Source of the DNA: Limisphaerales bacterium
GTDB taxonomy: Bacteria > Verrucomicrobiota > Verrucomicrobiia > Limisphaerales > UBA11358
Assembly: GCA_025360325.1 (NCBI GenBank)
Contig: JANYCI010000240.1
Location: 1 to 38,041, forward strand
Length of the DNA: 38,041 bases
Reading direction: 5' to 3'
A program made the translations under genes and the position numbers. Each line of letters begins with the position of its first letter. Within the stretch, counting starts at the first letter, position 1. Shown piece after piece: positions 8,295-32,645 of the stretch. The notes under the pieces were generated by a model, which was not told the origin of the DNA, did no database searches, and saw only the letters and a list, made by a program, of their open reading frames with translations.

Positions 8295-8298
8295 CATG

Positions 8299-8808: not shown

Positions 8809-9477
8809 TTATTGCAACAAATCTGGTCGCTTGGCTTTTGTTCGCGCCTTCGCCTGCTCGCGCCGCCATTTTTCAATCTCGGCATGATTGCCGGAGAGCA
8901 ACACATCCGGCACTTTTGCCCCGTGAAATTCCGCCGGGCGCGTGTATTGCGGATACTCCAGCAATCCGGCGCTGAACGATTCGTCGGACGAACTCGCATC
9001 ATCGCCCAACACTCCGGGCAGCAGCCGCGTCACCGCATCTATCACCACCATCGCTGGCAGTGCGCCGTTCGTCAGAACGTAATCGCCGATGGACAATTCA
9101 TCATCCGCCAGCATCGTCCGCACCCGCTCGTCAAAACCTTCGTAATGGCCGGTGACGAGCAATAAATTTTTTTGCGCCGCGAGTTCGCGCGCGATGCTCT
9201 GGTTGAACTTGCGTCCGCCGGGCGAGAGCAAAATCACTTTCGTCTCCGCGCGCTTCAAACTTTCCACCGCTTCAAACAGCGGCTCCGGCTTCATCAACAT
9301 TCCCGGCCCGCCGCCGAATGGACGATCATCCACCGTCTTGTGCCGGTCGTGCGTCCAGTCGCGCAACTGGTGGATGTTCAAGTCCAGCAAGCCCGCCTTG
9401 CGCGCCCGCATGATGATACTTTCATCGAGCGGCCCGGCGAACATCGCCGGGAACAAAGTCAGCACGTCAATCTTCAA
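8809..9477 (-). CDS. trmD: tRNA (guanine-N1)-methyltransferase
   Basis: [13 protein letters not shown]..., [79 protein letters not shown]. Confidence 0.96.
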
Positions 9478-9480
9478 GTG

Positions 9481-9543
9481 ATGAGTTATGAGTTATGAGT
9501 GATAAGCATTACCGGTCTCGCCACTCATCACTTATCACTCGTC
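9481..9543. repeat. Low-complexity inverted/direct repeat of a (g)agtgataag / gagttat unit
   Basis: tgatgagttatgagttatgagtgataagcattaccggtctcgccactcatcacttatcactcgtcac; gagtgataag versus cttatcactc are inverted arms. Confidence 0.6.
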
Positions 9544-9544
9544 A

Positions 9545-9784
9545 CTATTTTTCGTCTTCAACAATTTCCACAGAACAACGCAAGCCTTTGTTCGCGCTGC
9601 CGGCTTGCAGTAAAGAGCGAATCGCATTGATCGTCACGCCCTGTCGCCCGATGATCTGGCCGACATCCGACGGGTTCAGGCGCAGCTCAAAAACCGTCAC
9701 GCCCGCGCGTTCCACTGGTGTGACCGTCACGGACTCCGGGTGCTGCACGAGTCCTTTGACGACGTATTCGAGGAACTCCTGCAT
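9545..9784 (-). CDS. khpA: KH-domain RNA-binding protein KhpA
   Basis: MQEFLEYVVKGLVQHPESVTVTPVERAGVTVFELRLNPSDVGQIIGRQGVTINAIRSLLQAG; KH motif IIGRQG; position after rpsP. Confidence 0.88.
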   Translation of the reverse strand: MQEFLEYVVKGLVQHPESVTVTPVERAGVTVFELRLNPSDVGQIIGRQGVTINAIRSLLQAGSANKGLRCSVEIVEDEK

Positions 9785-9794
9785 GGCGGGAAAA

Positions 9795-10049
9795 TCAAAC
9801 CTTAGCCGCGCTCTTGGCCAGCTTCTTGAGGAAGCTCGCCACGGTATCGCTCGGCTGGGCGCCTTTGCTGATCCAATACTGCGCGCGATCCTGCTTGAGG
9901 ATAAAGTTTTCGCCCTCTTTGAGGGGATAGTAATTGCCGATTTCCTCGATGAATTTTCCATCACGCGGACTGCGGCTATCGGCGACTACAATGCGGAACA
10001 CCGGGGTGTTCTTCGTGCCGACACGTTTCATGCGAATTTTTACAGACAT
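9795..10049 (-). CDS. rpsP: 30S ribosomal protein S16
   Basis: [42 protein letters not shown]... Confidence 0.96.
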
Positions 10050-10589: not shown

Positions 10590-13500
10590 TTAATTATAGT
10601 GAGTGCGGAACTTACCGTTCGTGACTTCCAGCACGGCTGGGGTCGTGCCGGTATCGCCGATAGCATGGAAGGTGAAGCGGCCACTCACCGTCTTGGTGCT
10701 CGTGTCAATCGCGTCAATAATCACGGTGCCATGACTCCCCACGGACGCACTGCCGTTAGCCACCGCCCAAATTTGAGTTCCAGTAGCGGTTAATGGGGTT
10801 CTAGTATAAAGCATGATGCCGCCACTGCCGGAGTTGTCCATCTGCTTGGTGCCGGTCGAAAACTGGACGCCTTCAAAATCAAAGATGTTCAATGAGCCAT
10901 TGTAGAAATTGACTTGCAGCTTGAATCCTGTGCCAACAACCCCGTTCACCGCATTTCCCAAGGCGTTCGGGGTGATGTTCACCGCCGTGCTGCCAAGTGT
11001 CGCTGACATAAATACCGGGCCCGTGATCGGCACGGCGTTCACATCCGGTTTGTCTGCGAGGCTCAACGTCGCGGTGGTCTGTGCGCCGAGCGTCGCAAAG
11101 CCGTTGGGCAACGGCGTGTTCAGCGTGAGGTTCACCGTCTCGGTCGGTTCCGCCAACGCATCCGCGATGATGGGCACGAGAATGGTCTTGTTCGTCTCGC
11201 CTGCCGCGAAGGTGAGTGTGCCGCTCATGTCTGTGTAATCCAAACTAGAGGTCGCCGTGCCGCCGCTCATCGTGAAGTTCACGCTGACGCCGCTTGCCAC
11301 GCCGCCGGTGCGGATGACGTGGATGGTAGCGTTGCCGCCTTCCGTGCCGCTGAAACTCGCCGCGCTAAATTGAATCGCGCCAGCAAAATCATTGTTCGTG
11401 ATGGTGATGGTCTGCGTGGTGGTGGTGCCGAGTTGCACGCCGCCGCCTTGGGCATTGGAAATGGTGAAGGTGAAGTATTCGTTATTCTCCGCGAGGGTGT
11501 CGTTCACGATTGGAATCGTGATGGTCTTGCTGCTGACGTTGGCGGGAATCGTGACCGTGCCATTCGTCGCGCCGTAATCGGAACCGGCCGTGGCCGAGCC
11601 GTTGGCAGTGGCGAAACTGACGGTGACGGGTGAGGTCAACACACCGCCGCGCAAGAGCGTGACGATGACATTGCCCACACCTTCGCCAACGGTGACGACG
11701 GCGTTGCTGATGCTAATGCTATTCTCGTCATCAATGATGGTGAGCGTGGCCGCGTAGTTTGTAAGCGTTGCGCCGCCCTGGGCGTTCGTCATGGAGAAGG
11801 TGAAGGATTCGCTGCCTTCAATCGTGGTGTCTTGAATGATCGGAATGGCGATGATTTTATTCGTCTCGCCGGCTGCAAAATTCAACGTGCCAAAGGTGTT
11901 GGTGAAATCCACATCGGAAGTGGCCGTGCCGCCGGTGGTGAAATAATCCACCGACACGCCCGCCGCCTTGCCGCCGGTGCGGATGACGTTGACGTAAAAA
12001 TTCGTCGCGCTTTCGCTGGCGGAATAATTCGTTTTGACGAAGCTGATTTTACCGCCGAGATCGTCTTCGGAAATCGTCAGCAACGCGTTGGTGCGTGAGC
12101 CGAGGCTGCCGCCACCATTCGCATTATCCAGTGAGAGCAAAACTGTCGTGTTACCGCCGACGACGGTGTTGTTCAAGATCGGCACTTTGATTTTTTTCAC
12201 CGTCTCCCCGTTGGTGAACGTCACCGTTTGCGTGACATTGGAATAATCCACGCCCGCCGTGGCCGAGCCGTCGGTGGCAGTGAAACCTACCGTGACGCCG
12301 CTCGCGAGGCCGTTGCTGCGAGTAAGCGTGATGATCGCATTCGTGCCGCCTTCGGAGACGGTGTAATTATTCGTGCTGAAATTAATCGCGCCGCCGAAAT
12401 CGTTGTTGGTGATGGTCACCGTGGTCAATGATAACGGGGTGATAACGGACGGTGTGTGTGCGGACACCGAGTTGGCGACCAACCCGTCGAGCAGGCAGTT
12501 GGTCGGGTTGGAGAGCTGCACGAGGAAAGTTTCATTGTCTTCCACCAGCGTGTCGTTGGAGATGGTGAGACTGAACGTTTTGGATTTCACGCCGACCGGG
12601 AAAATCAAGGTGTTGTTAGTGGCACGATAGTCTAGCCCGGCGATGGCCGTATCATTAATGGTAGAAAAATCCACGCTGGCCGGTGTGATAAGCGCTCCGC
12701 TGCGGACAACGGTGACGCTGAACGTGCCGACGCCTTCGCCGACGACATAGTTGGCATTCGTGAAGCCTACGGTGGATTCATCATCCTTCACCGTCAGAAT
12801 CGCAGTCTTGGCCGTGTTGTTCGTGTTGATTTTCGCGCCGCCGGTGGCGTTGGTCAATTGCACGGAGAAACTTTGGTCGCCATTGAAAATCGTGTCATTG
12901 ATGAGATTCACCCGGAACGATTTGGACAATTCATTCGAGCCGAACGACAGCGTGCCGTTCGTGGCGACATAACGCACGCCAGCCAGCGCCGCGCCGTCCA
13001 GCGTGTTGAAATCCACCGTCACGCCGCTCGCGCTGCCGCCGGTGCGGACAACGGTGATGAGGAAGTTCGTAGAATTTTCATTCGTGACGTAGTTGCTCTG
13101 CTTGAAGGCGAACGTGCCGCCGAGATCATCGTTCACAATGCCGACGGTCGTGGCGAGGTTCGTGCCGAAGGCCGCGCCGCCGGTGGCGTCGGTGATCTGC
13201 ACATGGAAAAACAAATTCGATTCCACCACGGTGTTATTGATGATCGGAACCAAAATCGTCTTGCTGGTGATGGTGGGGCCGAAGACCAGCGTGCCGTTCG
13301 TTGTCACATAATTTTGGCCGGGCAACGCCGTGTCCGGCACGGTGGCAAACGAAACCGTGGCGGTGCCGGCACTGCCGCCGACCCGGTTGATGATGACCGG
13401 CGCGAACTTGATCGTTTCCGGCACCGAGTTGCTCAACGTGGCAAATTGGAATTTTCCCGCCGCCGCCGTTTCGTCGTCAATGATCGTGAACATCGCGTTG

Positions 13501-14579
13501 GAACGTCCGCCGAGTTCCGCGCCGCCCAGCGGATCCGCGAGGTGAAGATTCACCGTGCGGTTGCCGTCGAGCAGATGATTGCCAAACGCTTGCAGGGTGA
13601 TGGTTTTCTCCGTTTCGCCATCTGCAAAACTGACCGTCTGGTTGATGGGATTGTAGTCATCATTCGCGATGGTGGCCGTGCCGTCCGTCGTGAAGCAAGT
13701 CACGGAAACGATGCTGGCATCGCCACTGCGGGTGATGGTGACGTTGTTAAATAAATCGGGATTTTCCGGGCCGGCAAACTGGCTGGCGGCAAACTGGATG
13801 CGGCCATTGCTCGGCGGCGTGGGCAGCGTGGCGAGTGGGAAATCCGTCTGGCGGAAATAACCGGCCAGACCTTTCGCGCCGGGATAATTCGTCGAGAGCG
13901 TTGCGCGTTTGACGAACAGGAGGCTGCCCTGATACGCCGTGCCGTCATTCAGAGTGTCCGCCGGGATTTGCGCCACGAGGTTCGTGCCGTTCAGCGCATT
14001 CGTCACGAACAACGCGGGCGTCGAGATTACCGAGGAGCCATCCAGCGTGGCGATGCTCACCATAATAAAATCATTCGTGGTGCCGTTCGTGAACGTGCCC
14101 CACGAGAGGTTCAAGGGCTGCAAGGCTTCCACTGTTTGCACATCATCCCAGTTCACGAGCTTCGGCACGGGCGGAAAATTATCCGCCGGCAACGCCAGCG
14201 CCGGTTTGTTGGTGCCGTCGTGTTGGCCAACGATGGTGTAGGCGTAACTGCCCACGGCATACGCTGCATCCAACGAAGTCTTGTTGGTGAATCCCGTTTC
14301 AAATTCAAACGTGCCGTCGTTGTTCGTCAGCACGCGCACCTGAGTGTTGGGCAGTTTCAAAGTGACCGACAACACCGAGTCCGTGGCCGCGCCGTCCACG
14401 ATTGACGTGAATCTGAAGGGCTTGTTATTCGTCAGCGTCAACACCGTGGTGGCATTGGTTTGGAAATAATCCTGACCTTTGGCGACCAAGAAACGGGTCA
14501 CGTCACCGGCCTGCACGGAGGTCAGTGAGCTGAACGCCAGCGCGGTTAATAGTGAGGTGCAGAGATTTTTTATTTTCAT
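10590..14579 (-). CDS. Large exported protein with about 8 tandem Calx-beta domains
   Basis: Signal peptide MKIKNLCTSLLTALAFSSLTSVQAG (start 14579; ORF to 14630); repeated units such as IQFSAASFSGTEGGNATIHVIRTGGVASGVSVNFTMSGGTATSSLDYTDMSGTLTFAAGETNKTILVPIIADALAEPTETVNLTL. Confidence 0.9.
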   Translation of the reverse strand: MKIKNLCTSLLTALAFSSLTSVQAGDVTRFLVAKGQDYFQTNATTVLTLTNNKPFRFTSIVDGAATDSVLSVTLKLPNTQVRVLTNNDGTFEFETGFTNKTSLDAAYAVGSYAYTIVGQHDGTNKPALALPADNFPPVPKLVNWDDVQTVEALQPLNLSWGTFTNGTTNDFIMVSIATLDGSSVISTPALFVTNALNGTNLVAQIPADTLNDGTAYQGSLLFVKRATLSTNYPGAKGLAGYFRQTDFPLATLPTPPSNGRIQFAASQFAGPENPDLFNNVTITRSGDASIVSVTCFTTDGTATIANDDYNPINQTVSFADGETEKTITLQAFGNHLLDGNRTVNLHLADPLGGAELGGRSNAMFTIIDDETAAAGKFQFATLSNSVPETIKFAPVIINRVGGSAGTATVSFATVPDTALPGQNYVTTNGTLVFGPTITSKTILVPIINNTVVESNLFFHVQITDATGGAAFGTNLATTVGIVNDDLGGTFAFKQSNYVTNENSTNFLITVVRTGGSASGVTVDFNTLDGAALAGVRYVATNGTLSFGSNELSKSFRVNLINDTIFNGDQSFSVQLTNATGGAKINTNNTAKTAILTVKDDESTVGFTNANYVVGEGVGTFSVTVVRSGALITPASVDFSTINDTAIAGLDYRATNNTLIFPVGVKSKTFSLTISNDTLVEDNETFLVQLSNPTNCLLDGLVANSVSAHTPSVITPLSLTTVTITNNDFGGAINFSTNNYTVSEGGTNAIITLTRSNGLASGVTVGFTATDGSATAGVDYSNVTQTVTFTNGETVKKIKVPILNNTVVGGNTTVLLSLDNANGGGSLGSRTNALLTISEDDLGGKISFVKTNYSASESATNFYVNVIRTGGKAAGVSVDYFTTGGTATSDVDFTNTFGTLNFAAGETNKIIAIPIIQDTTIEGSESFTFSMTNAQGGATLTNYAATLTIIDDENSISISNAVVTVGEGVGNVIVTLLRGGVLTSPVTVSFATANGSATAGSDYGATNGTVTIPANVSSKTITIPIVNDTLAENNEYFTFTISNAQGGGVQLGTTTTQTITITNNDFAGAIQFSAASFSGTEGGNATIHVIRTGGVASGVSVNFTMSGGTATSSLDYTDMSGTLTFAAGETNKTILVPIIADALAEPTETVNLTLNTPLPNGFATLGAQTTATLSLADKPDVNAVPITGPVFMSATLGSTAVNITPNALGNAVNGVVGTGFKLQVNFYNGSLNIFDFEGVQFSTGTKQMDNSGSGGIMLYTRTPLTATGTQIWAVANGSASVGSHGTVIIDAIDTSTKTVSGRFTFHAIGDTGTTPAVLEVTNGKFRTHYN

Positions 14580-14730
14580 GGTGGTGTAAATTCCTTCAAA
14601 AACGGGGCGTGAGAATTTCATTTTTTGCACGCGCGTTCAAGCAAAAACCCGGATTCGTTTCCCGCCCGTGCGGTCGTGGCCAATTTCTGCATTGGACTTT
14701 CTCGCGCCGCTGCATTTACCCTTTTCCCGC

Positions 14731-19780: not shown

Positions 19781-20171
19781 TTGTGCATAATTCCAATTAA
19801 ATCCGTTCTCGCATTGGCTCTTATCGCCAGCGTGATTTTTGTCGGCTCCAACTGCGCGACCGCGAGTGACACAAATTCACTACCCACCGAAACTCCCGCG
19901 CAGCGCGAGGCGCGGATGGCGTGGTGGCGGGATGCCAAGTTCGGGATGTTCATCCACTGGGGCGTTTATTCCGTGCCGGCAGGTTTTTATCACGACCAGC
20001 CCGTCAAGGGCATCGGCGAGTGGATCATGAACAAAGGAAAAATTCCGATGGCCGAATACCAGTCGTTCGCCAAAGAATTTAATCTCGTAAAATTTGACGC
20101 CGACGCGTGGGTAAAAGCCGCTGCCGACGCGGGCATGAAATACATTGTCATCACCTCCAAGCACCACGATG
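19781..20171 (+). pseudogene. N-terminal fragment of a GH29-like alpha-L-fucosidase
   Basis: AWWRDAKFGMFIHWGVYSVPAGFYHDQPVKGIGEWIMNKGKIPMAEYQSFAKEFN...AAADAGMKYIVITSKHHD: classic GH29 N-terminus, stopping right after TSKHHD. Confidence 0.82.
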
Positions 20172-20747
20172 TAACAATCACGGGGTTTGGAATGAAAACG
20201 GCGCACGATTGTCGTTTCAAGTGCTGCCGCTTTTTTGGCAAACAGCGTGGTTCAAATTACTGATTGGGATGGTGGTGGTCGCCGTGCTGATTTTTTTTAT
20301 CGCATCAAACTTGCGCGTTTGCGGGCGCTAGAAAAACTTCGCCAGCAGATCGCACGCGATCTCCATGACAAAGTGGGGGCTAATCTAGGAAGCATTTCGC
20401 TGCTCACCGAAGTCATGGAGCAACGTCCGCAACCGGGCGACCTCGCCCAAATCCGTTCGACGGCGGATCAGACCGTGGACACCTTGCGCGATCTGGTGTG
20501 GATCATCAATCCCTCGCACGAACATCTCTCGGACTTGATTGCGCGGCTCAAGCAGATTGCCGCGATCATGCTGACAAATCTCACCTACGAATTCGCCGAA
20601 ATGGAGTCGGCAAACAACATCAAGCTATCGTTGGAACTCCGGCGGAATGTGCCACCGCTATTCAAGGAGGTGTTGAACAACATCCGCAAACATTCCAAGG
20701 CGCGTCGCGTCGCCATCCGGTTGTATTGCCAGGATGGTTTTTTGATC
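20170..20747 (+). pseudogene. Internal fragment of a Y_Y_Y/HisKA_3 sensor histidine kinase, frameshifted at a T8 run
   Basis: CNNHGVWNENGARLSFQVLPLFWQTAWFKLLIGMVVVAVLIFF, then a frame change at gattttttttatc, then YRIKLARLRALEKLRQQIARDLHDKVGANLGSISLLTEVMEQ...LFKEVLNNIRKHSKARRVAIRL (H-box and N-box). Confidence 0.8.
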
Positions 20748-20864
20748 GGTGAAGAACGCGGAGTGGATTTTGCCTTTGCGCGCCACACGCACAAAGAAAC
20801 CGTGATTCCTTTTTTTCGGTTGATCAATCCGGCAGATGCCGGGTGTGGCGGAAGGGCGGTTCAT
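20745..20864 (-). pseudogene. Fragment of an AP2-domain-like protein
   Basis: Minus-strand ORF 20658..20864: ICRIDQPKKRNHGFFVRVARKGKIHSAFFTDQK resembles an AP2-like (G-x-VRV..RGK...FFsD) core; what follows is antisense to the kinase fragment. Confidence 0.55.
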
Positions 20865-20881
20865 AGATTATTTTTTCCTAA

Positions 20882-21078
20882 GTCCCGGCAGGGACGAACG
20901 ATAATAGCCCACGATTTCAACCGTGAGTTGCGAACGCAAATCCAGCCAAGCCCCGGAGGGGCGAAAGAACGCCTCGGAATACCAAGACGATTTCTTCCGT
21001 CCCTGACGGGACTCGCTCCGTTCGCGCGCGTTTACCCAGCGATGAATCGCTGGGCTATTTTCGGGCGTCCCGATGGGA
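20882..21078. repeat. Cluster of palindromic elements, two copies in opposite orientation
   Basis: gtcccggcagggac (20882), agccccggaggggc (20949), gtccctgacgggac (20999), cccagcgatgaatcgctggg (21035), gtcccgatgggat (21066); shared 'atagccca'/'gggctatt' segments. Confidence 0.75.
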
Positions 21079-21444
21079 TTTTGATTCGGATTGTGCATGG
21101 ATTCTTTCCAATAATTTCTCGGCAGGTTCCGCCTCTGACATATTCGTGAGTATGAGCCGGTTTGAAAAAGCAGGGAAGCAGAAAATCCCAATTGCGTTGG
21201 CCAAGATCTGCGTAGTCCGTGTTTTGCGACAGGGCGTGTTCGGGCGGTCAAAACATTAGGCTTGCTTCCACCAGACCGACGCCTTACCAGATTGGCAGGT
21301 ATTATCCGGGCTATAAAATTCCAATGAATCTTAATAGGATTAAATCATTGACCTTGTCGCAGGCAGAACTCCCGCACCTCCACGTCTATTTTAATTCTGT
21401 CGGCCTCTCAACGCGGATCAACCATCTAGCCACCTCATCGAAAA

Positions 21445-22575
21445 ATGAAAACCAATAAAAAGAATCGGTCCGCGAAAGCAACGCCGCCCGCGAAGGCGGT
21501 GCGACGTGCCGCCCTCCTGACCGATAGCGGTTCTGTGACTCTGGAGCAGGCCAAAGCTATCGTTCAGGATCGGGCTCCAAAGCGCGCCTTAACTCGTCAG
21601 TTGGTGGCAACCGTTCCGCTGGCCACGCCGGGTAGCGTCGGTGCCGAGCGCAAAAAACTCCGACTGCAACACCGCAAAGAGAATCAGCAGCGTATCCGCG
21701 AATACAAAGCCACCATGCAAATCATGAAGCAGCGCGGCGTCACCGGCTTGGCTCACCAGGCGGCCAAAGCTGGGAGTCAGCGCGGCCCTATTGGTCCAGT
21801 AGGAAGCCGGGCACCCGCTGCGCTCGCACCGCAACCGTTGCAAATTTTTGCCGAGGGCGATTCATGGTTTGATTATCCCATTCCTTTTTTTGGCGGCGGC
21901 ATCATTCCGCGTTTGGAAGATCAGCTCGGCGTGCCCATCCTCAATCTCGCCAAGGCCGGTGACGAAGTCCGGTTCATGTTAGGTGTGGAGGAACGTAAAG
22001 TTCTGGCGAAACACCTCATGGATGGTTGTCCGGTTGGCGGAGCTTGGGATGTTTTGCTTTTCTCCGGCGGCGGAAACGACATTGTAGATAACCCGATGGC
22101 TCTCTGGATCAAAGATTTCAATCCCGGCGTTCCGCCGAGCGCGCTGATTCATCAGGCGCGTTATGACGCGGCCTTGGCGCTCGTGCGCGCTGGCTATGAA
22201 GATTTGATCACTCTGCGCGACACCTTTAGTCCCGGCACGCATCTGGTCTTCCATGCCTATGACTTTGCCATTCCTGATGGTCGTGGAGTTTGTTTCCTCG
22301 GTCCTTGGCTAAAACCAACTTTTGATCTACGAAAATTCCCCGTCAGCTCGCCCGCAAGGTTTGAGGTGGTAAAAGCCATGCTGCAACAATTCGCCGCGTT
22401 GCTCCTATCGTTGGAAAGCCGTGGTAACGTAACCTTCATCAATGGGCAGGGAACCTTGGCACCGGTTCCTAGTTCTTGGCACAACGAACTACACCCCTCA
22501 AAGCAAGGCTTCGATAAATTTGCCAACCTATTCCACGCGAAGCTAAAAGCCCTTTTCCCGGCGCGCGTGCTTTAA
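21445..22575 (+). CDS. SGNH/GDSL-type hydrolase, leaderless, with a basic N-terminal extension
   Basis: Block I FAEGDSWFDYP, block III-like FSGGGNDIVDN, block V WHNELHPSKQGFDKFANLF; N-terminal ~120 aa basic and helical, no signal peptide. Confidence 0.8.
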   Translation: MKTNKKNRSAKATPPAKAVRRAALLTDSGSVTLEQAKAIVQDRAPKRALTRQLVATVPLATPGSVGAERKKLRLQHRKENQQRIREYKATMQIMKQRGVTGLAHQAAKAGSQRGPIGPVGSRAPAALAPQPLQIFAEGDSWFDYPIPFFGGGIIPRLEDQLGVPILNLAKAGDEVRFMLGVEERKVLAKHLMDGCPVGGAWDVLLFSGGGNDIVDNPMALWIKDFNPGVPPSALIHQARYDAALALVRAGYEDLITLRDTFSPGTHLVFHAYDFAIPDGRGVCFLGPWLKPTFDLRKFPVSSPARFEVVKAMLQQFAALLLSLESRGNVTFINGQGTLAPVPSSWHNELHPSKQGFDKFANLFHAKLKALFPARVL

Positions 22576-22693
22576 TCAATAGAATAAATAAGAACTGATG
22601 AGACGATTCAATTAGCCAGAGAGAACTAAAAAAATTGGTTCAAAAATTGATAACTAATGCCTTCTGTCCGATCTATCTCAACCTTTCAAATAT

Positions 22694-25600
22694 ATGATCT
22701 CCGACTTTCTAGATGAAAAGTATGTCCTCGCTCAAGCGCGCGCTCAACGCCACTGGCTTCAAGATTTGCTGAAAAAAACGAAAGCAAAAAATTCTGCCGC
22801 GCTCGCGGCCTTGAAAAAATACGGTGTGTCGGCCAAACAAATAGAGACTGCCATCAAGGCACTAGATGCGGCGCTCATGCTGGCCAGCGCCGCCAAGCCC
22901 GGCTCGCACGCGGCGTTCATTCCGTCTATCCCTGTGCTCTGCGCTTTTCAAGCAGGCATGACGAGCATGGCGGATCGGCGAGCCAATACGGTCTCGGATT
23001 CGCCCGTGCCCTCGCCCGCTTCGCGCCGTGTCGTATCGAGAAGCGCAGGCGCAAGACCGATGGCGGTCATTGACACTTCGGCGACGGAACACTTGAAGCG
23101 CCGGGCTGACGCCGGTGCGATCACCGGGCCGGGGCGCGCGGTGGTGCGGGCGCCGTTTGTGGAAGGCGATGACATTCATTACGGGCTGGATGGCTTCGAG
23201 GCGAAGTTCGGGGCTTTATTCAGGGGCCGCCGGAAGTTCAACAACAAGGCCGCCGTGTCTGCGCTTTCGACCAAGCCGTTGCGGCTATTTGTTTTTGGTG
23301 ATTGGGGCACGGGGCTGCCGCTCGCGCAGATGGTCACGCAACAAATTCGCCAGCAGATTGATCTTGCCGATGACACCCGCCAGCAACATGTGGTGCATCT
23401 CGGTGATGTTTATTATGTAGGTGAGCCGGAAGAATACTCGGAGCGAATGATCGCATCGGGTATGTGGCCGGTGACGGGAATAGAGAAGGACAAGATTGGT
23501 TCGTGGAGTCTCAACGGAAATCACGATATGTATGTCGGTGGCTTCGGCTACTTCGACAAACTGCTGCGTGATGGTCGTTTCCTGCGCTGGCATCGCGACG
23601 CTGCGGGCGAGCCTTCGAGTTTCTTTGTCATCGAGGATGCGGACTGGCAATTTTTTGGATTAGATACTGCGTGGAACCTTCCCTCGCTCGCTAGCGCTAT
23701 CTTTGGGGATCCAACGCTGAAGGACTACGGCGGACAAAATGGAATCCTCACCAAGGAACAGGTGAAGTGGATGGCTAGTCAGCGCAATGCCGCGAAAGGT
23801 TGTGTGCTGTTCACGCATCATCAACCGGCAGCATCGCGCACAACAGAAAAGCAGCACGCAGACGAGGCCGTTAAGTTACTCAAGCAGGAAGGGGTGTATG
23901 CCCAGATTGATGCCTGGTTCTGGGGGCATGAACATCGTTGCGTTGTTTTCAAACCGAAGGCGGAGCGCACCACGCCACGACTCGCGGACGCGCCGGAATT
24001 TTGCGCCTGCATCGGCCACGGCGGTATCCCGGTGACGGCCAAAAATTTTGAAGAAGATAAGACGATTTCAGATGTCGCCTGGCAAGAAAATCGCCTTGAT
24101 GGAACTTCGCCGGTGTATGAAGGCGAGCGTATCGTGCCTTTCGGATTTGCGCGGATTGACACGGCGCCGGGCGCACTCGATATACGCATCTTCGATCACA
24201 ATGGTGCCGAGCGTTACCAGACTACCTTCGTGCGGCCAGTGCCTGCATCAGTGGCACTAGCTGATACTAAGTCGCCATCCCGCTCTATCAGCCGCAGCTT
24301 CGTTGTTAGCAAGCAAAAGAAATTAACTAAGTCCGCCAAAAAACAAAACGCGCACGCAACCATCGTAGATAAACGACAATCAAGCCAACCTAACCACCAT
24401 CAGACTATGAGCAAAAAAATCACGGCCAGCACCAGTAAACCAACACCCGTCACCGTTGCCGAGTGGACTATCCTTATCTACATGGCGGGCGACAACAATC
24501 TAGATTCGTTCGGCGGAAAAGATTTGCAGGAGATGAAGCGGGTCGGCTCCACGGACAAGGTGCGGGTCGTCGTGCAACGCGACAGCGCGAAAGAAGGCGC
24601 GCATCGCTACCATGTGCAAAAGGGCACTACCCTGAAGCAGGATGAAATCGCGGCGCTCGGCGAGATCAACACCGGTGATCCGCGCGTGCTTGAAGATTTC
24701 CTCAATTGGGGATTAGCTAAGTATCCTGCGAAGCGCACGATGGCCGTGGTGTGGAACCACGGCAACGGCTGGGACGACACCGATATTTACGCGGCGGCGA
24801 AAGCGCGGGGACTCAAGCCAATGCCGGCGGCTGGCGATGGCGCACGGCGCGGCATCGGCGGGTTGGACACGGGCTTTGCCGTAGCCCGCGCAGTGAACAT
24901 TCCACGCGCGCGCGGTTCATTTTTTGTTACCGCCTTCGACATGAAAAAAGTGAACGGCCTTCGCCGCGCCATTGCCTTTGATGACAAGGCGCAGGACTTT
25001 CTCGACAGCGTGGAACTCAAAAATGTTTTTTCCTCCGTCGCGAAAAAAATGAAAAAGAAATTCGATGTCATCGGCATGGACGCCTGCATGATGAGCATGA
25101 TAGAGAATGGCCTACAGGTGCAGGGCGGCGGCGAGGTCTTCTGCGGCTCACAAGAAATCGAACCGGGCAATGGCTGGCCCTATGACCGTATCCTCGCGGC
25201 GCTTAATGCGACACCAGTGATGCCTGGCCAGCAGCTCGCTAGTTTGATCGTGAAGGAGTTTGTGGCTTCTTATCCCAAGACTGAAGCTGTGACCCAATCC
25301 GCTTTCGATCTCGCGGCCTTGACCGCCGTGCAGAAATCTGCGGACGCATTCGGCGATTTGTTGATCAAGGCGCTGGCTAATCCAGATGACCTAGCCGTCG
25401 AGGGCGCAATCAATCGCGCCCGCAAACAATCGCAGAAGTATGAGCACCCGGACTACGTGGATCTTTGGGACTTCACCGCCAAGCTCGCCGCTCTTTGGCC
25501 CGGTTGCGCGCCCGCCGCCAAAGCGGTGCAGCAGGCTATCGGCAAGTGTGTCTTCGCCAATGCCGCGCCGCACGCCAACGTCAGCCAGTCACACGGTCTC

Positions 25601-25699
25601 TCGATCTACCTGCCGGTGGACAAGGTGAACGATCTTTACACGCGGCTCGACATTGCGGGTCGCGGCTGGGCGAAATTTCTTAAAGCCTTCAAAGGTTAA
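22694..25699 (+). CDS. Fusion protein: calcineurin-like/purple-acid-phosphatase-like metallophosphoesterase plus clostripain-like (C11) cysteine peptidase
   Basis: MPE motifs LFVFGDWGTG, HLGDVYY (GDxxY), NGNHD, FTHHQP, WFWGHEH. C11 motifs WTILIYMAGDNNLD, VVWNHGNGW (His), DVIGMDACMMSMIENGLQ (Cys), GSQEIEPGNGWPYDRIL. One uninterrupted 1001-aa frame; internal Met at 24407. Confidence 0.88.
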   Translation: MISDFLDEKYVLAQARAQRHWLQDLLKKTKAKNSAALAALKKYGVSAKQIETAIKALDAALMLASAAKPGSHAAFIPSIPVLCAFQAGMTSMADRRANTVSDSPVPSPASRRVVSRSAGARPMAVIDTSATEHLKRRADAGAITGPGRAVVRAPFVEGDDIHYGLDGFEAKFGALFRGRRKFNNKAAVSALSTKPLRLFVFGDWGTGLPLAQMVTQQIRQQIDLADDTRQQHVVHLGDVYYVGEPEEYSERMIASGMWPVTGIEKDKIGSWSLNGNHDMYVGGFGYFDKLLRDGRFLRWHRDAAGEPSSFFVIEDADWQFFGLDTAWNLPSLASAIFGDPTLKDYGGQNGILTKEQVKWMASQRNAAKGCVLFTHHQPAASRTTEKQHADEAVKLLKQEGVYAQIDAWFWGHEHRCVVFKPKAERTTPRLADAPEFCACIGHGGIPVTAKNFEEDKTISDVAWQENRLDGTSPVYEGERIVPFGFARIDTAPGALDIRIFDHNGAERYQTTFVRPVPASVALADTKSPSRSISRSFVVSKQKKLTKSAKKQNAHATIVDKRQSSQPNHHQTMSKKITASTSKPTPVTVAEWTILIYMAGDNNLDSFGGKDLQEMKRVGSTDKVRVVVQRDSAKEGAHRYHVQKGTTLKQDEIAALGEINTGDPRVLEDFLNWGLAKYPAKRTMAVVWNHGNGWDDTDIYAAAKARGLKPMPAAGDGARRGIGGLDTGFAVARAVNIPRARGSFFVTAFDMKKVNGLRRAIAFDDKAQDFLDSVELKNVFSSVAKKMKKKFDVIGMDACMMSMIENGLQVQGGGEVFCGSQEIEPGNGWPYDRILAALNATPVMPGQQLASLIVKEFVASYPKTEAVTQSAFDLAALTAVQKSADAFGDLLIKALANPDDLAVEGAINRARKQSQKYEHPDYVDLWDFTAKLAALWPGCAPAAKAVQQAIGKCVFANAAPHANVSQSHGLSIYLPVDKVNDLYTRLDIAGRGWAKFLKAFKG

Positions 25700-25730
25700 T
25701 TCAGCTACTTAATTTCACCCATTTATTGTC

Positions 25731-28031
25731 ATGGTAAAGAAACGAATCGCTGCCCCAAAGCCCGGACGCGCAGTCGCTATCGCCGGGCGTGAGAAGACTT
25801 ATCAAGTCGTGCTCCGAACGCGCGAATTTAAGATCACGGCCAACGTCGAAGACCGCGCGTTGTATCCGCGCGCGGTGGCTTGGAATCGCCTGCTGACTTC
25901 GGATCGCGGACGGCAGTCAGACCAGCCTGCCGACCGTCGCGTTTGGCAGGAGTCCGGGCTGCAGGCCATTATAGAACTCGCGAGAGTCGGCGGCGTCGAA
26001 CCCAAGGAGGCCGAGGACTTCCTTGCTTCCGCCGCGAAATGTGGCGAAGTCCAGGTCGAGATGGAGTGGGAGGCTGAAACCATTGGCTGGGCCGCCCGCG
26101 TATTTCCTTGGGAGGCACTGATTGCGCTGGCGACCAAACCGGCGCGCGAAAAACTTGCTGGCGAAGGCCGGGGAATTGTGGTCGTGCGTTGGTTGCGTTG
26201 CAAAGCTCCGTTGCTACCATCTGCCACGGGGCCGATTTGTTTTGCCGTCAGCGCTGAAGCGAAACAAGCGGGCTATGATACCGACACCGAGCATGCCGCC
26301 ATCGAAGCCGCCATTGATCCGCTAAAGCTAGTAGATATCCCATCAGGATCGCTGGCACAGTTGGGCGACAGTCTTAAAGATAAGAAGCCGCGCGTGCTTC
26401 ATTACGTCACGCCTTCAGCGCGCGATGTCGGGCGCGGGGAGTCGGTGGCCGAGGGACAAAAACTGGAGGACATCGCGAGAACCGTCGCGGCCCATCACCC
26501 GCAACTCGTCGCCTTCAGTTCCTGCCACACTGGACGCCGACTCGCGCCGCTGGCGATCGCGTATGGCGCACAGCTCGCCGTGGGCTTCCATGACGACGTG
26601 ATGGACAGCAGTTGCCCGGTGTTTTTCGGCGCGTTCTATCGCGAGTGGGCCAAGACGGGACTGGTCTTCAAAGCCCTGCGGGAGGGTCTCGAAGCTCACA
26701 ATTGGAAAAAGTCACCGAACGATCTCGGTGGCATCACCCTCTGGTCCGCGACGGATCTCCTCCAAGGACCGAAACGTTCCGTGAAAATCCCTGCGCGCTC
26801 CAGTGCCACGGTTGAACGTTTGGAGAAGCCGGAACTTATTCTCGAAGCCCTCAAGGTCACCTGCGTTTTGGAAACCGCGCTGAACTACTCCATGCTCCAC
26901 AACAAGCGCGGTGGACTCTTCGCCAACTTCGGCGTGCTCAAACTCAAGTCTGGAAAAATTGATGACCTAGAGATCACTGTGAAAATTGACACCGGCCTAG
27001 ACCGGCCGGTGGAATGTCATTTCTTTGCGGCCATTCCTGACCAGCCGGATCGCACCGTGGACTTCATGGAAAATATTACCGTGCCGCTCGGCTCCGAGCT
27101 ACTGCGGCGGCGTGGCGAGATGCTGCGCGGCATCGTCGAAGTCACCATCTACTGTGGCCAGGTGCGCGTCTTTCATAGTTTTGATTCCATCGAACTGCCG
27201 CCCTGTGATGAATGGAAAGATGACGAAGCCGGACGGCGCTTCCTGCCCTCCTTCATCTTCCCGCGTGACCCGGCCGTGCGCGAGATACTTACCAGCGCGC
27301 AGCCTTTTCTGCGCGCGCTCAAAGATGATGTCCGCGCAGCGTTTGATGGGTATCAAAATTCAGGCAACGCCGGAGTGATTGATTCGCTGGACGCACAACT
27401 CCGTTCCATCTGGGGCGCACTCCAGCAAAATTGCCGACTCGATTATACCAACCCGCCGCCGTCTTACACCAAGAACGTCCAGCGCGTGCGCACGCCCGAG
27501 GAAATCATGCGCTCCCGCCGCGCCACCTGTCTCGAACTTGCCCTACTCCTCGCGTCTTGCTGGGAGCACATCGGTCTCTATCCCGTGATCTTTCTCTCCA
27601 AAGGCCACGCCTTCACCGGCTACTGGGCGAGCGATGTGGCGTGGCGAGATTTTTTTGACACAAAGAAACGTCTGAACGCGGCCAAAGATATTAACCCTGC
27701 CGATGAAGACGTGCAGGACAAGACCCTTAATTCGATTGATCCTGCAAAGGCTTCCGGCGGCGGCATGGCGTCCAAAGATCCAGACTGGTTGCTGCGAGCC
27801 ACGCACCATCTCGCACTCATCTCCCGCGAAGTCAAAGCCGGGCGTCTCGTTGCCGTTGAAGCCACGGCCGTCGCACGTTTAGAGTCGTTCCGTGATGCCA
27901 TCAACCTCGGACGTGCTCAACTTTCCGAAGCGTTCGCCGCCGGAACCTTTGACGGGATGATTGATGTCCGCACCGCCCGCGATCAACGCGTCACTCCACT
28001 CGCCATCATCACCGAAGGCATCGTTGCATAA
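25731..28031 (+). CDS. CHAT-like (caspase-fold) protein with C-terminal transglutaminase-like domain
   Basis: WAARVFPWEALIAL...GIVVVRWLRC and PQLVAFSSCHTGRRLAPLAIAYGAQLAVGFHDDVMDSSCPVFFGAFYREWAKTGLVFKALREGLEA resemble CHAT. RTPEEIMRSRRATCLELALLLASCWEHIGLYPVIFLSKGHAFTGYWASD resembles a TGL Cys/His core. Confidence 0.72.
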   Translation: MVKKRIAAPKPGRAVAIAGREKTYQVVLRTREFKITANVEDRALYPRAVAWNRLLTSDRGRQSDQPADRRVWQESGLQAIIELARVGGVEPKEAEDFLASAAKCGEVQVEMEWEAETIGWAARVFPWEALIALATKPAREKLAGEGRGIVVVRWLRCKAPLLPSATGPICFAVSAEAKQAGYDTDTEHAAIEAAIDPLKLVDIPSGSLAQLGDSLKDKKPRVLHYVTPSARDVGRGESVAEGQKLEDIARTVAAHHPQLVAFSSCHTGRRLAPLAIAYGAQLAVGFHDDVMDSSCPVFFGAFYREWAKTGLVFKALREGLEAHNWKKSPNDLGGITLWSATDLLQGPKRSVKIPARSSATVERLEKPELILEALKVTCVLETALNYSMLHNKRGGLFANFGVLKLKSGKIDDLEITVKIDTGLDRPVECHFFAAIPDQPDRTVDFMENITVPLGSELLRRRGEMLRGIVEVTIYCGQVRVFHSFDSIELPPCDEWKDDEAGRRFLPSFIFPRDPAVREILTSAQPFLRALKDDVRAAFDGYQNSGNAGVIDSLDAQLRSIWGALQQNCRLDYTNPPPSYTKNVQRVRTPEEIMRSRRATCLELALLLASCWEHIGLYPVIFLSKGHAFTGYWASDVAWRDFFDTKKRLNAAKDINPADEDVQDKTLNSIDPAKASGGGMASKDPDWLLRATHHLALISREVKAGRLVAVEATAVARLESFRDAINLGRAQLSEAFAAGTFDGMIDVRTARDQRVTPLAIITEGIVA

Positions 28032-28075: not shown

Positions 28076-28250
28076 TTAGAGGAACAACACGCCTTCGCTT
28101 GGCCAGTCTTTGAATAGATTCAGCGCCTCACCTCCCAAGTGAATAATCACCGGCCTATCAGTTTTTTTTGCGAGTGAAACTCACCGCGCCGTTCTGCCAG
28201 TCCACATCCTCGCCATTCAGATTGGTGCGGCGCTTATTCCCACGAGTCAA
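28076..28250 (-). pseudogene. Tyrosine recombinase/integrase remnant, frameshifted
   Basis: Minus strand: RGNKRRTNLNGEDVDWQNGAVSFTRKK, then A8 run (28162-28169) with a frame change, then TDRPVIIHLGGEALNLFKDWPSEGVLFL*; matches the usual '..NLxxEDVDWQ.G.isf.RKKT..pv.ihLG' integrase segment. Confidence 0.65.
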
Positions 28251-31200
28251 TGGCCTGACGTAGAGTCTGGAGGCTGCTTTGGCGATTATTTTCATCCAGC
28301 CAATTCCCAACTCGGTATAATTTTTCTAACTGGTCAGCTTGCGCTTGATAATACGGCTTGCCCGCCGCGCCCACCGGCCCAAGCTTCGCGGTCGGATTGA
28401 TTTCCGCGTATTTCAGTTCCGGCGGGATGCTGGCTCCGAACGACGCCAGCAGTTCAATCAACCGCCCGTCGAGGCGGCGAACAATCTTTGATTTCAATTG
28501 CCCGATTGCCGGATTTTGTTTTTGTAGTGTCAAGGCTTTGTCGGCCAGCGTCAGGGCGTTGGCGTAGTTTTCGAGCACATAGGCGGACTGCGCTTGGCTG
28601 ACCGTTTCCGTCAACTGTTTCAAAGACTGTTGAGCCGCTTCTTTAATTTTTGTGGCGGCGGAATCACCGGGCATTTTTTTTAAGGCGCTGCTGGCCGCCG
28701 TCACGGCTCCGGCAAAATCTTCGCGGGTCAATGTCGCTTGGGCGTTGGCCAGTTCAAGCTGATAGCTTTTGAGACTTCCAAGTTTGTCCAAAGCATTGGC
28801 CTTGAACTTCCGCATCGCTGGGTCATTGCCATAAACCGCAAGGGCATTGTCAGCATTGGTGGCGGCGGCAAAAAAATCTCCATTCTTGAACGCGGTGGTC
28901 GCGGCGTTCACGGACGTATGATAGCCGTTGAGAATGTCCTGTGCCGACTCGCGCACGGTGATGGCGGTGCGCTCGCCCGGAACCTTGTCCAAGGCACTGT
29001 TGGCAAAACGGACGGCGTTGGAATAATCCTGACGGTTCAGCGCGGCTTGCGCGCTTTTCAACGCTTCGACATAAATTTTTTGACCATCAAATCTGGTGGC
29101 GGCATTGGTGCGGAGTTGTTGCATGGCCGGGTCATAAGGATAAATCGAGAGCGCGAGATCGGCATTTTCCTGCGCGGCCAAAAAGTTCAGTCCGGCCACC
29201 GCCGCGTGGGCGGCGTTCACGGCTTGATGATAGTCATTGAGATTTTTTTCCGCCCGCCCGCGCAGTTGGTCCGCCTCGACATCGCCGGGAATTTTTTGGG
29301 CAGCCGTTGCCGCCAGCAATGCGGCGTTCGTGAAGTCGCCAGACTTGAACGCCGCTTGCGCCTGCACCATCGCCGCTTGGTAAGCCGCGATGTTCAGCCG
29401 CTTGGCATGAGCCTCCGCTTTGAGCTGCTGCATCACTGTGTCTTTGGCCGACAAGTCCAGCGCGCGATCAGCATTCGTCTCGGCACTAGCGAAATCGCCA
29501 CTGGTGAAAGCAACTTGTGCGGACATCGTGGCCGCCAAAAAATTTGTCAGGCGCAGCCGGGCATTTTCCTGCAAGGCCAGCGCGTTGCTATTGCCACTGA
29601 ATTTTCCAAGCACCGCTTCCGCCCAGAGCAAGGCATTAGAATAGTCTTGATGCGCCAGCGCGGTCTGACCGTTTTGCAGCAACGCAGCCAAACTCGTTTG
29701 CAACTGGTGACGCTGCTGGCTGTCGGACGCCAGTTTTTGCAAGGCCGGATCATCGCCGCGAATCGCCAGAGCTTTCTCGGCGGCGGCGGCGGCACCGGCA
29801 AAATCTGCGCGGTTAAAATCATCATGCGCCTGCGCCACGGCCTGTTCATACGCTTTGGCGCGCAGATGACTGCGGGTCTGGTTGAAGCTGAAATAGCCGA
29901 GCACGACCACCAACCCCGCCGCTGAAACCACGATGGCGCTGCGGATATTTTTACGGATGCCGCGCCATTTTTGAACCGACTGCACGACAGAATTTTTTAC
30001 CGCACTCCGAAAGGCGAGCCAGCCCGCAACCGATTTGATTTTTGATCGCCTAACTTTTTCCGCAAAACTTTTTGCCGGACGAGATGAGCGCGCCGCCGAA
30101 ATTTTTTGCAAAACGAATTGCCATGCCCGGCCCACCCACCCAACAATTTTGCCGCCAAGTTGCCGAGGCTTTTCCACCAGTCCGCGAAGCCCGCCCAAGT
30201 CCCGCCACTTGCGAGTAGCTTGGGTGAACACTTTTTGTCCCCGCGCTTTTGCGGCCTGGAAAAACTGGCCGCAGGCTCTGCCAATTCGGGCGGCTTGTTG
30301 CCACAGTTGCGCCTTGATGTCGGCGATGTCTTGATTGCGCTGCTGGCGAGAGACTTGTTTTTTTTTCGATTCTTCGGCCTCGGCCTGGCGCTGAAGTTCT
30401 TGCGCGGCGAGTTCCTCGGCCTTGCGTTTAACTTCGTCCTCCTGCCATTTCGCCTCCATCACGCGTCGCCGCGCGGCGGTCTCGGAGGCGCGTTGCTCGA
30501 CTTGTTCGGCGAGCTTTTGCGTATGTTCCAATTCCGTCTTCAGATTTTTTTGAGCCGCTTCCTCGGCGGCAAGCCGCTGGTTTTCCAACTCAACCGGATC
30601 AGGTTCAACGACGGCTGGCTCGACGATTTCAGTGGCGGACGGTGCGGCTTGAATTTCCGCTGCCACTGGTGCGAGTTCCGTTTCCAGACTCGGCAAGATC
30701 GTGGATTTAACAAACAACGTGACCTCGGTCGCTTGGTCGGGATTGCGACCCGCCGTTGCCAATTCCCATTTGAGCAGCCCGCCATTGATTTCATCGCGCA
30801 TCGCTGCCGCACTGTCGAAACGTTCGGCGGCAGTAGGTGCGAGACAGCGTTGCAACAGCGGAACCAACTCCGGGCGCGCTTGAAAAACGGGATGCTCGAA
30901 GCTGCACGGCAACGGCTTTTCCGATCGCCGGAAAAATTCCACCCACGCCTCCGACTCGGATTTTGGCAGGCGAGGGAAGGGGAGCTTGCGCGTGAGCGTC
31001 TGGTAAAGCGTCACGCCGAGCGAATACAAATCCGATTGCGCCGACCCTCGTCCGCTGCTCTGCGACGCAAATTCCGGTGGCATATAATCAAGCGTGCCGG
31101 GAACTTGCCCGCGCGTTTTCGTTCCCTCGTCGTCGCGCGCGATGCCGAGGTCGAAAATCTTTGCGCGCTGCGACTGACCGGCGGGCGCATACAAATTACC

Positions 31201-32508
31201 CGGCTTGAGATCGCGGTGAATGATGCCGTTGCGATGCAGATGATCGAGGCAGTCGAGGTAGCGCGCGAACAGTTGCAGCGTCTCGATCGGCTCCAGCCCG
31301 CTGACCGTGGCCTTGATGCGTTCGCGCAAACCGGCGCCGGGCATCCCTTCGAGAAATTCCAAGACGAGATAAAATTCTCGTTCGTCCTCGCGCACTTTGG
31401 CTTCGACAAAATCCACATACTCCGTGAGGTTCGGATGCGCCGCCTCGCGCAAAATTTTCGCCTCGCGCACGAAACGCGCCGATTGTTCCGCGCCGAACAA
31501 TCGCTTGATGGCTACGAGACGACCATCGCGCACACGCTTCGCTTTGAAGACTTCGCCGAAGCCGCCTTTGCCGAGCCATTCCAGAAAATCGTAGGTGTCC
31601 GCGCCGTGCTTGAGCTTGCGAAAATTTATTTCTTGGAAGTTTGCGGCAACTTCGCTGAACGACTTGAACCGCGCCGCACGGTCGGGGTTGATGCACTTGG
31701 CAACGCACGCGCCGGCTTGATTCAACACGCGAAAAATCGGATGGCGAAAATCTGGCGCGGGCGCGGCGGCCGATCCGATCCAGCGAATGAAATAGCCACG
31801 GTTCGCATCATCGCCGAGCGCGGGAAACGGCAGACCACCCGTTAGTGTGTAATGCAAAATGATGCCAAAACTAAAAATGTCCGACTGCTCATCGCCGCGA
31901 AATTTTCCGTCCTTCGCAAAGTCCGGTGCCATGTAATCGAACGTCCCCTTCGCGCCCGCTGTGCTCGCGGTCGCGTCCGCCTCGCCATCGTCCTGCCGCG
32001 CAATGCCGAAGTCCATGAGCTTGGGCACGGCGGCACTGGTGATGTGAATGTTCGATGGCTTGAGGTCGCGGTGGATGACACCATTTTCACTTGCGTATTG
32101 CAATGCCTCCAAAACCGGCAGCAAAACACCGCGCGCTTTTTCCCACGCCAAGCCGCGCGGATTTTTTTCGAGCAACGTCTTGAACGATTCGCCATCGAGC
32201 AGTTCCATCACGAGGCAATGCAAGTCTGCTTCCAACTCCGTTTCGCGCCACACGAACGAGTCTTTGTAACGAACGATGTTCCGGTGGTTGAGCTTGCTTA
32301 AAATTTCGATCTGCCGACGGAACTGTTGCGGCTCTTTGTCCTGCCCCGGCTTTTTGAACAGGCGTTTGATCGCCACCGCCTCGCCGAGCGCCACGCCGGA
32401 AATAGTTTTCACCGCGCAGACCGCCTGATAGACGCGCCCTTCCGCACCATCGCCAAGCACGCGCTGCAACTCGTAGTTGCCGAGAACGGTTTTGGTGGTG
32501 TCAGCCAT
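28234..32508 (-). CDS. Membrane protein with two tandem Ser/Thr protein kinase domains, one TM helix and about 9 C-terminal ~53-aa helical repeats
   Basis: Kinase 1: YELQRVLGDGAEGRVYQ, VAIKRLF, GVIHRDLKPSNIHI, LMDFGIAR. Kinase 2: YDFLEWLGKGGFGEVFKA, VAIKRLF, GIIHRDLKPGNLY, IFDLGIAR. TM SAIVVSAAGLVVVLGYFSF. Repeats such as YQAAMVQAQAAFKSGDFTNAALLAATAAQKIPGD. Start MADTTKTVLGNYEL at 32508. Confidence 0.92.
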   Translation of the reverse strand: MADTTKTVLGNYELQRVLGDGAEGRVYQAVCAVKTISGVALGEAVAIKRLFKKPGQDKEPQQFRRQIEILSKLNHRNIVRYKDSFVWRETELEADLHCLVMELLDGESFKTLLEKNPRGLAWEKARGVLLPVLEALQYASENGVIHRDLKPSNIHITSAAVPKLMDFGIARQDDGEADATASTAGAKGTFDYMAPDFAKDGKFRGDEQSDIFSFGIILHYTLTGGLPFPALGDDANRGYFIRWIGSAAAPAPDFRHPIFRVLNQAGACVAKCINPDRAARFKSFSEVAANFQEINFRKLKHGADTYDFLEWLGKGGFGEVFKAKRVRDGRLVAIKRLFGAEQSARFVREAKILREAAHPNLTEYVDFVEAKVREDEREFYLVLEFLEGMPGAGLRERIKATVSGLEPIETLQLFARYLDCLDHLHRNGIIHRDLKPGNLYAPAGQSQRAKIFDLGIARDDEGTKTRGQVPGTLDYMPPEFASQSSGRGSAQSDLYSLGVTLYQTLTRKLPFPRLPKSESEAWVEFFRRSEKPLPCSFEHPVFQARPELVPLLQRCLAPTAAERFDSAAAMRDEINGGLLKWELATAGRNPDQATEVTLFVKSTILPSLETELAPVAAEIQAAPSATEIVEPAVVEPDPVELENQRLAAEEAAQKNLKTELEHTQKLAEQVEQRASETAARRRVMEAKWQEDEVKRKAEELAAQELQRQAEAEESKKKQVSRQQRNQDIADIKAQLWQQAARIGRACGQFFQAAKARGQKVFTQATRKWRDLGGLRGLVEKPRQLGGKIVGWVGRAWQFVLQKISAARSSRPAKSFAEKVRRSKIKSVAGWLAFRSAVKNSVVQSVQKWRGIRKNIRSAIVVSAAGLVVVLGYFSFNQTRSHLRAKAYEQAVAQAHDDFNRADFAGAAAAAEKALAIRGDDPALQKLASDSQQRHQLQTSLAALLQNGQTALAHQDYSNALLWAEAVLGKFSGNSNALALQENARLRLTNFLAATMSAQVAFTSGDFASAETNADRALDLSAKDTVMQQLKAEAHAKRLNIAAYQAAMVQAQAAFKSGDFTNAALLAATAAQKIPGDVEADQLRGRAEKNLNDYHQAVNAAHAAVAGLNFLAAQENADLALSIYPYDPAMQQLRTNAATRFDGQKIYVEALKSAQAALNRQDYSNAVRFANSALDKVPGERTAITVRESAQDILNGYHTSVNAATTAFKNGDFFAAATNADNALAVYGNDPAMRKFKANALDKLGSLKSYQLELANAQATLTREDFAGAVTAASSALKKMPGDSAATKIKEAAQQSLKQLTETVSQAQSAYVLENYANALTLADKALTLQKQNPAIGQLKSKIVRRLDGRLIELLASFGASIPPELKYAEINPTAKLGPVGAAGKPYYQAQADQLEKLYRVGNWLDENNRQSSLQTLRQAIDSWE

Positions 32509-32645
32509 GCGCGTCAGTGGTTGGCCGTCGCCGTCGGGCTGGTGGCGGGCGCGGGCGCATTGGTGGCGATTCCGTTCAGCCGATTCAGCCACTCGGTTTT
32601 AGTGGCGGCGAACTGCGGGCTGAACCAAACAGGTCGTTCTGATAC

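Follow-up and report, generated by a model that had tools for sequence, protein, structure and literature searches.

Do three adjacent genes that encode a putative esterase, a phosphoesterase-peptidase fusion and a two-part peptidase-like protein form one functional unit and, if so, what might that unit do? This question is raised by a locus of a Limisphaerales bacterium (Verrucomicrobiota; GenBank assembly GCA_025360325.1, 4.03 Mb in 372 contigs), which was analyzed within a window of 38,041 nucleotides, the whole stretch of contig JANYCI010000240.1 studied here. The genes lie on the forward strand. P1 (21445-22575, 376 amino acids) encodes a predicted SGNH (GDSL-type) hydrolase, P2 (22694-25699, 1001 amino acids) a metallophosphoesterase joined to a C11 peptidase, and P3 (25731-28031, 766 amino acids) a protein with a CHAT-fold half and a beta-sandwich/transglutaminase-like (TGL) half. 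An initial annotation had described three co-directional genes separated by 118 bp (P1-P2) and 31 bp (P2-P3), each with a different catalytic fold and without a recognizable signal peptide, and had read them as a proteolytic conflict or regulated-death module. The open reading frames are positioned exactly as described, profile, structure and residue evidence agree with the three folds, and no signal peptide was apparent on P1, P2 or P3 when inspected by eye.

P3 was found to be the center of an operon type that is widespread and apparently undescribed. The module is real and conserved, with ordinary parts in a new arrangement. The reading favored here, held at about an even chance, is that P1-P2-P3 is the verrucomicrobial variant of this P3-centered module, a proteolytically gated hydrolase of the bacterial caspase/hydrolase conflict type.

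The P3 Family and Its Hydrolase Partner

A three-sequence P3 alignment was used to scan 85,462 species genomes, and 30 additional relatives of full or nearly full length were recovered. With the window and two loci from the window's phylum, 33 P3 loci were compared, and residue conservation was assessed in 25 aligned members. The family occurs in at least five phyla (Verrucomicrobiota, Planctomycetota, Acidobacteriota, Gemmatimonadota and Pseudomonadota). Its distribution is patchy; a search of 117 relatives and 390 phylum members found full-length P3 in the window and two genomes only.

Neighbor clustering identified a single family of about 450 amino acids as the downstream gene in 26 of the 33 loci. 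This family corresponds to Pfam DUF7379 (9e-31) and has conserved HGTFS, HSRGG, ND and HH motifs with an intact Ser-Asp-His triad; because of these motifs, the partner is assigned to the alpha/beta-hydrolases. The two genes are closely coupled. The DUF7379 start overlaps the P3 stop by 4 bases (ATGA or GTGA), with the frame open, in 18 of these 26 loci, which can be taken as a sign of coupled translation. The divergence of P3 is weakly correlated with that of DUF7379 (rho 0.29, Mantel p 0.017). The five-member sets from Thiodiazotropha and from Pirellulaceae are not independent samples, and at least a dozen other lineages carry the pair. It is present in sequenced isolates, for example of Bradyrhizobium, Stieleria and Tahibacter, and in the genomes with the pair DUF7379 was found above the cut-off as a neighbor of P3. 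When other folds are counted, namely SGNH in the window, patatin, LCAT and a PGAP1-like protein, an esterase or lipase was observed beside P3 in 30 of the 33 loci. The literature search found no published account of a CHAT-TGL/DUF7379 pair and no relevant literature on DUF7379.

The Verrucomicrobial Branch

A DUF7379 gene is absent from all six verrucomicrobial P3 loci (the window, L013, L047, L050, L063 and L078), and DUF7379 was found above the cut-off nowhere in the five verrucomicrobial P3 genomes searched or in the Gemmatimonas one. In its place, the verrucomicrobial loci carry a phosphoesterase and/or a C11 or HExxH peptidase. Two sub-types were distinguished, which match two well-supported P3 clades. 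The first (window, L050 and L047) has C11 5' of P3, with a phosphoesterase as well in the window and L050. The second (L013, L063 and L078) has a phosphoesterase and an HExxH protein 5' of P3 (HEAGH or HETGH, followed by WRAE[IV]FADH). The phosphoesterases of these loci are homologous (33% identity across the domain). Exchange of the hydrolase itself was also observed, as lipase-type genes of unrelated folds stand in the P3 gene runs: SGNH in the window, patatin in L013 and an LCAT-M17N-CHAT protein in L078.

Among the three loci that have no esterase or lipase, L063 is cut by a contig end, and in L047 other genes are found, which encode a membrane metacaspase, a lysozyme-like protein and a subtilase. 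The L047 genes at 5758-9840 comprise a metacaspase with a membrane-anchor-like N-terminal region, followed by one protein that has both DUF5675 and lysozyme/pesticin-like domains, 5' of C11 and P3; a region related to this N-terminal region occurs without a caspase in L078. In Gemmatimonas (L051), a caspase-like gene and a PGAP1-like alpha/beta-hydrolase lie near P3, both with weak, sub-threshold Pfam scores. Conservation of the neighborhood, which was one of the checks proposed in the initial annotation, was partial: P3 occurs with a phosphoesterase and/or C11 in other Verrucomicrobiota and with a lipase-type hydrolase elsewhere, but the SGNH gene P1 is not conserved.

Domains and Active Sites of P3

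The N-terminal half of P3 (25731-26820, residues ~24-340) has a CHAT fold of clan CD. Its Pfam CHAT match is weak (20.7 bits, cut-off 24). The profile of the 25 members matches SAVED-CHAT 8tl0 at 1.9e-7, and the AlphaFold2 model (mean predicted local distance difference score 79.8) matches SAVED-CHAT, gingipain, separase and Csx29/TPR-CHAT. In the alignment, HFIGHG...LNACC of SAVED-CHAT corresponds to HLAGFD...LNLYNS in the P3 family. The position that corresponds to the canonical CHAT His is not occupied by His in any of the 25 members. The Cys position holds Cys in five members, all from Verrucomicrobiota and including C265 of the window; the other 20 have Tyr, Trp, Phe, Arg or Ser there. 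Because the canonical His is lost throughout and the Cys in most members, the CHAT half is probably a pseudo-protease that serves as a binding or scaffolding domain. P3 was also considered as an active CHAT protease, a reading rejected because of the residues at the dyad positions.

The C-terminal half (26821-28031, residues ~370-766) consists of a beta-sandwich and the TGL domain, in which C600, H626, E710 and D745 are invariant in all 25 members. TGL Pfam matches (DUF553/Transglut_core) were obtained for 15 of 25 and seven of 25 relatives. The NCBIfam model NF058533, "anti-phage protein ProA", matches this half with its N-terminal region (1e-52), and the half is homologous to the N-terminal region of the ProA/DUF4011-DUF3320 helicases. 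Assignment of P3 itself to ProA was rejected, as it scores 178.9 bits against a cut-off of 1500 for this 1903-position equivalog and covers the N-terminal 318 positions only. Most of the annotated plasmid genes that match the C-terminal half bear the name DUF4011 or DUF3320. These proteins, plasmid matches included, share the TGL half of P3. The sole literature find on ProA/DUF4011 concerns the Pseudomonas aeruginosa defense hotspot cDHS1, where a DUF4011 gene forms the conserved right flank (PMC10250203).

The Metallophosphoesterase-C11 Fusion P2

The N-terminal part of P2 (22694-24250) has a helical N-terminus and a calcineurin-like metallophosphoesterase domain (Metallophos 42.9 bits, Pfam cut-off 21.5), whose metal motifs GDWGTG, GDVYY, GNHD, HHQP and GHEH are present in P2 and four relatives. 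A Lys/Arg-rich linker (24251-24460, net charge +12 over 75 amino acids) leads to the C-terminal part (24461-25699), a clostripain-type C11 cysteine peptidase (Peptidase_C11 147.7 bits, cut-off 25.8). The catalytic residues of this domain, His of NHGNGW and Cys of DACMM, align with those of the solved C11 enzyme 6n9j. Since L050 has the phosphoesterase and C11 as two separate genes directly 5' of P3, P2 looks like a gene fusion. Basic linkers precede C11 in three loci. Clostripain-type enzymes have a basic cleavage specificity, and for this reason the linkers are possible self-processing sites.

P3 is the sole CHAT protein and P2 the sole C11 protein of the window genome, and no C14 caspase was found in it. 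The structural check of the initial annotation came out in its favor for all three folds, C11 by alignment to 6n9j, CHAT by the SAVED-CHAT matches and TGL by the Pfam and ProA matches. Its count of two caspase-like modules did not survive the residue comparison of the CHAT half described above. Judging from the residues, the locus does not have two consecutive caspase-like proteases; its proteases are probably the TGL domain of P3 and the C11 domain of P2.

P1 and Its Probable Place in the Operon

P1 scores 26.3 bits for Pfam GDSL, under the cut-off of 32.9. Its AlphaFold model matches SGNH esterases of the PDB in Foldseek (best EstL5, E 4e-8, probability 1.00), and S140, G172, N211 and H350 are invariant across six aligned sequences. 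By predicted fold and these four residues, P1 is an SGNH hydrolase despite the sub-cut-off Pfam score. A basic region of ~130 amino acids (net charge +21) precedes the catalytic domain.

P1 could be a chance neighbor, with P2-P3 as the real pair and the SGNH gene belonging to an unrelated unit. The 118 bp before P2 is the largest gap, no SGNH gene stands in any of the other 32 P3 loci, and P1 relatives occur in six genomes of the phylum where full-length P3 was not seen. Against a chance neighborhood stand the shared strand of the three genes and the position of the sole promoter-like match around the beginning of the unit, which lies 5' of P1 (21292-21319, forward strand, 10 of 12 consensus positions; the count of such matches is not above chance). 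In addition, P1-type SGNH belongs to the enzyme class that fills the same place elsewhere, where other P3 loci have different esterases. A P1-related SGNH domain is also fused to a C14 caspase in genome G333 (L094). Chance adjacency is accordingly considered unlikely, though it deserves to be taken seriously: membership of P1 in the P2-P3 operon is put no higher than likely, because an SGNH gene is absent from all other P3 loci, and the case for it consists of adjacency and the habits of the P1 family.

These habits were followed in other genomes. In G370, a P1-related SGNH gene adjoins a subtilase. Locus L093 (G308:C6, 3292-12468) has a SIR2_2 protein, an SGNH hydrolase, a subtilase and a caspase in one same-strand run. 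Locus L094 (G333:C50, 1140-12657) is a compact multi-caspase conflict locus with a CHAT-STAND-TPR protein, a caspase with a peptidoglycan-binding domain, the caspase-SGNH fusion and a DUF7379-CHAT fusion, so that DUF7379 also occurs fused to CHAT. Since P1 relatives stand beside, or are fused to, caspase, SIR2, subtilase and CHAT-STAND genes, the P1 family accompanies peptidase-based conflict genes.

Genomic Setting and Alternative Functions

The initial annotation had placed the genes in a mobile or defense island, with repeats on the left and an integrase relic on the right. Tandem Repeats Finder found no array, and the repetitive open reading frame on the left (10590-14630, reverse strand) encodes a 1346-amino-acid protein with eight Calx-beta domains, the likely origin of the reported repeats. 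The contig has no PF00589 match, and the genes to the right of the operon encode a kinase-TPR protein, type II secretion system (T2SS) proteins E and F, and FHA proteins. The kinase-TPR gene (28234-32592, reverse strand), convergent with P3, encodes 1452 amino acids, has two protein-kinase domains and gives weak TPR matches; in Gemmatimonas L051, a related gene is found close to P3. Immediately to the left of the operon (19781-21149) stand a truncated alpha-L-fucosidase gene (its first third) and a fragment of a HisKA_3 histidine kinase, both apparently broken. The island argument was dropped, as neither tandem arrays nor a tRNA were found, the contig has no tyrosine integrase and no full-length P3 was linked to a plasmid or phage.

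Several results weigh against a defense role. First, no PADLOC model matches P1, P2 or P3. Secondly, known defense genes are rarely neighbors of P3: among 132 neighbor proteins scanned with PADLOC, Septu was found at one locus, together with generic DinG, RecD, caspase and subtilase matches and a few single matches such as PDC-S68. Defense-island enrichment was dropped as support, as this signal was too weak. Third, P3 has no consistent linkage to a sensor or NTPase gene. Lastly, full-length P3 was found on none of the plasmids and in none of the phages searched, and the surroundings of the P3 pair are constant across species in Rhodopirellula/Stieleria and in Thiodiazotropha, unlike those of a mobile defense island. 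At the one Septu locus (L058, 13810-15968, a Blastocatellia metagenome-assembled genome), Septu-like PtuA and PtuB genes lie directly 3' of the P3-DUF7379 pair.

The constant chromosomal surroundings in Pirellulaceae and Thiodiazotropha, the plasmid and phage result and the scarcity of defense genes nearby are what a housekeeping role would lead one to expect, with P3 and its hydrolase engaged, when cells are uninfected, in the remodeling or repair of lipids or lipoproteins of the envelope. That role fits poorly with the patchy distribution of P3, with P1 relatives that accompany caspases, SIR2 and STAND genes, and with partner swaps between unrelated folds, which typify conflict systems and not core metabolism; we regard it as doubtful. 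Improbable by comparison is the view that the hydrolases are secreted or injected cargo, antibacterial effectors directed at competitors, with P3 as a processing or immunity scaffold. The P1 and P3 N-termini are Lys/Arg-rich, and such basic tails, found on C11 relatives as well, would suit cargo, as would the lack of signal peptides noted above. Other points in its favor are the lysozyme-like neighbor in L047, the caspase with peptidoglycan binding in L094 and the T2SS E and F genes right of the window operon. However, the neighbor clusters of the 33 loci link no contractile-injection or secretion apparatus gene to P3, no small immunity-type gene is conserved, and the T2SS genes are not conserved P3 neighbors elsewhere.

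Proposed Mechanism and Significance

The defense reading is preferred over housekeeping or cargo with confidence that is about evenly balanced, and an anti-phage function is plausible. The conflict or regulated-death module of the initial annotation remains a reasonable class given the conserved neighborhood and the company kept by P1 relatives. In the preferred reading, P3 would act as a scaffold or regulator, its degenerate CHAT domain fused to an active-looking TGL cysteine peptidase. The partner would be an esterase or lipase: in most phyla this is the DUF7379 alpha/beta-hydrolase, in the window the SGNH protein P1. Verrucomicrobiota would add a phosphoesterase together with another peptidase (C11 or an HExxH zincin). 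A trigger bound through the CHAT/beta-sandwich part would switch on the TGL peptidase; in the branch of the window, the C11 peptidase with its basic linker would be activated as well. Proteolysis would then release the partner hydrolase, which would attack membrane lipid or another ester and cause growth arrest or cell death, a response most likely directed at phage or other invaders. The window phosphoesterase would contribute a nucleotide- or phosphate-directed activity and C11 a second proteolytic step. We infer the trigger, TGL cleavage of the partner, the lipid substrate and the defense role, and the gated-hydrolase mechanism was proposed because of the analogy with VMAP caspase pairs and protease-activated effectors (PMC7159879, PMC12799240). 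The partner esterase could target something besides membrane lipid, which also counts against the reading as set out here.

A more specific proposal is made tentatively: the loci may form a distinct class of immune or regulated-death operon, in which a pseudo-CHAT sensor and TGL peptidase gate a membrane-lipid hydrolase, and in which unrelated folds replace one another, from phylum to phylum, as lipase, phosphoesterase and second peptidase. The analysis provides a concrete two-gene unit, CHAT-TGL and DUF7379 hydrolase, in sequenced isolates. It also suggests a possible role for two uncharacterized domains: one is DUF7379, the other the TGL half found in anti-phage helicases of the DUF4011/ProA type. 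The catalog of proteolytically gated bacterial death systems has so far held mainly active caspases and trypsins; if the proposal is true, a pseudo-caspase sensor and a transglutaminase-like activator would join it.

Comparison with Known Systems

The MoxR-vWA (VMAP) ternary systems (Kaur et al. 2020, PMC7159879) resemble the P3 module in that their caspase-type, clan CD peptidase-fold protein always has an alpha/beta-hydrolase gene as neighbor. The list of exchangeable effectors is also the same, including calcineurin-type phosphoesterases in related GTPase systems (PMC7159879). They differ in that the clan CD domain of P3 is degenerate and fused to TGL. No MoxR, vWA or VMAP gene was found among the scanned open reading frames of the window or as a conserved P3 neighbor cluster. 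The VMAP paper does not mention CHAT and has one mention of a transglutaminase-like peptidase (PMC7159879).

The SAVED-CHAT and TPR-CHAT (Craspase) proteins of type III CRISPR systems have the closest solved fold to the N-terminal half of P3. However, P3 has no GHG-type His (25 of 25 members) and usually no Cys, SAVED and TPR regions are both absent from it, and a link to CRISPR was not seen. For the helicase-type ProA (NF058533, DUF4011/DUF3320), the P3 beta-sandwich and TGL match model positions 21-318, and the model matches all 25 members, whereas the remaining ~1600 positions are absent from P3, which has the CHAT fold instead. Clostripain family C11 (PmC11, clostripain) shares its aligned catalytic His and Cys with the C-terminal domain of P2, but P2 is cytosolic by sequence with no apparent secretion signal, is fused to a metallophosphoesterase and stands beside P3.

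Lastly, paired proteases activate gated effectors in several phage-defense systems (PMC12799240). In the caspase-nuclease (canu) and nuclease-protease pairs, the effector is an MBL-fold nuclease and the peptidase an active caspase or trypsin, unlike the components encoded here; what they share with the module proposed in this study is a protease that gates a co-encoded hydrolytic pro-effector (PMC12799240).

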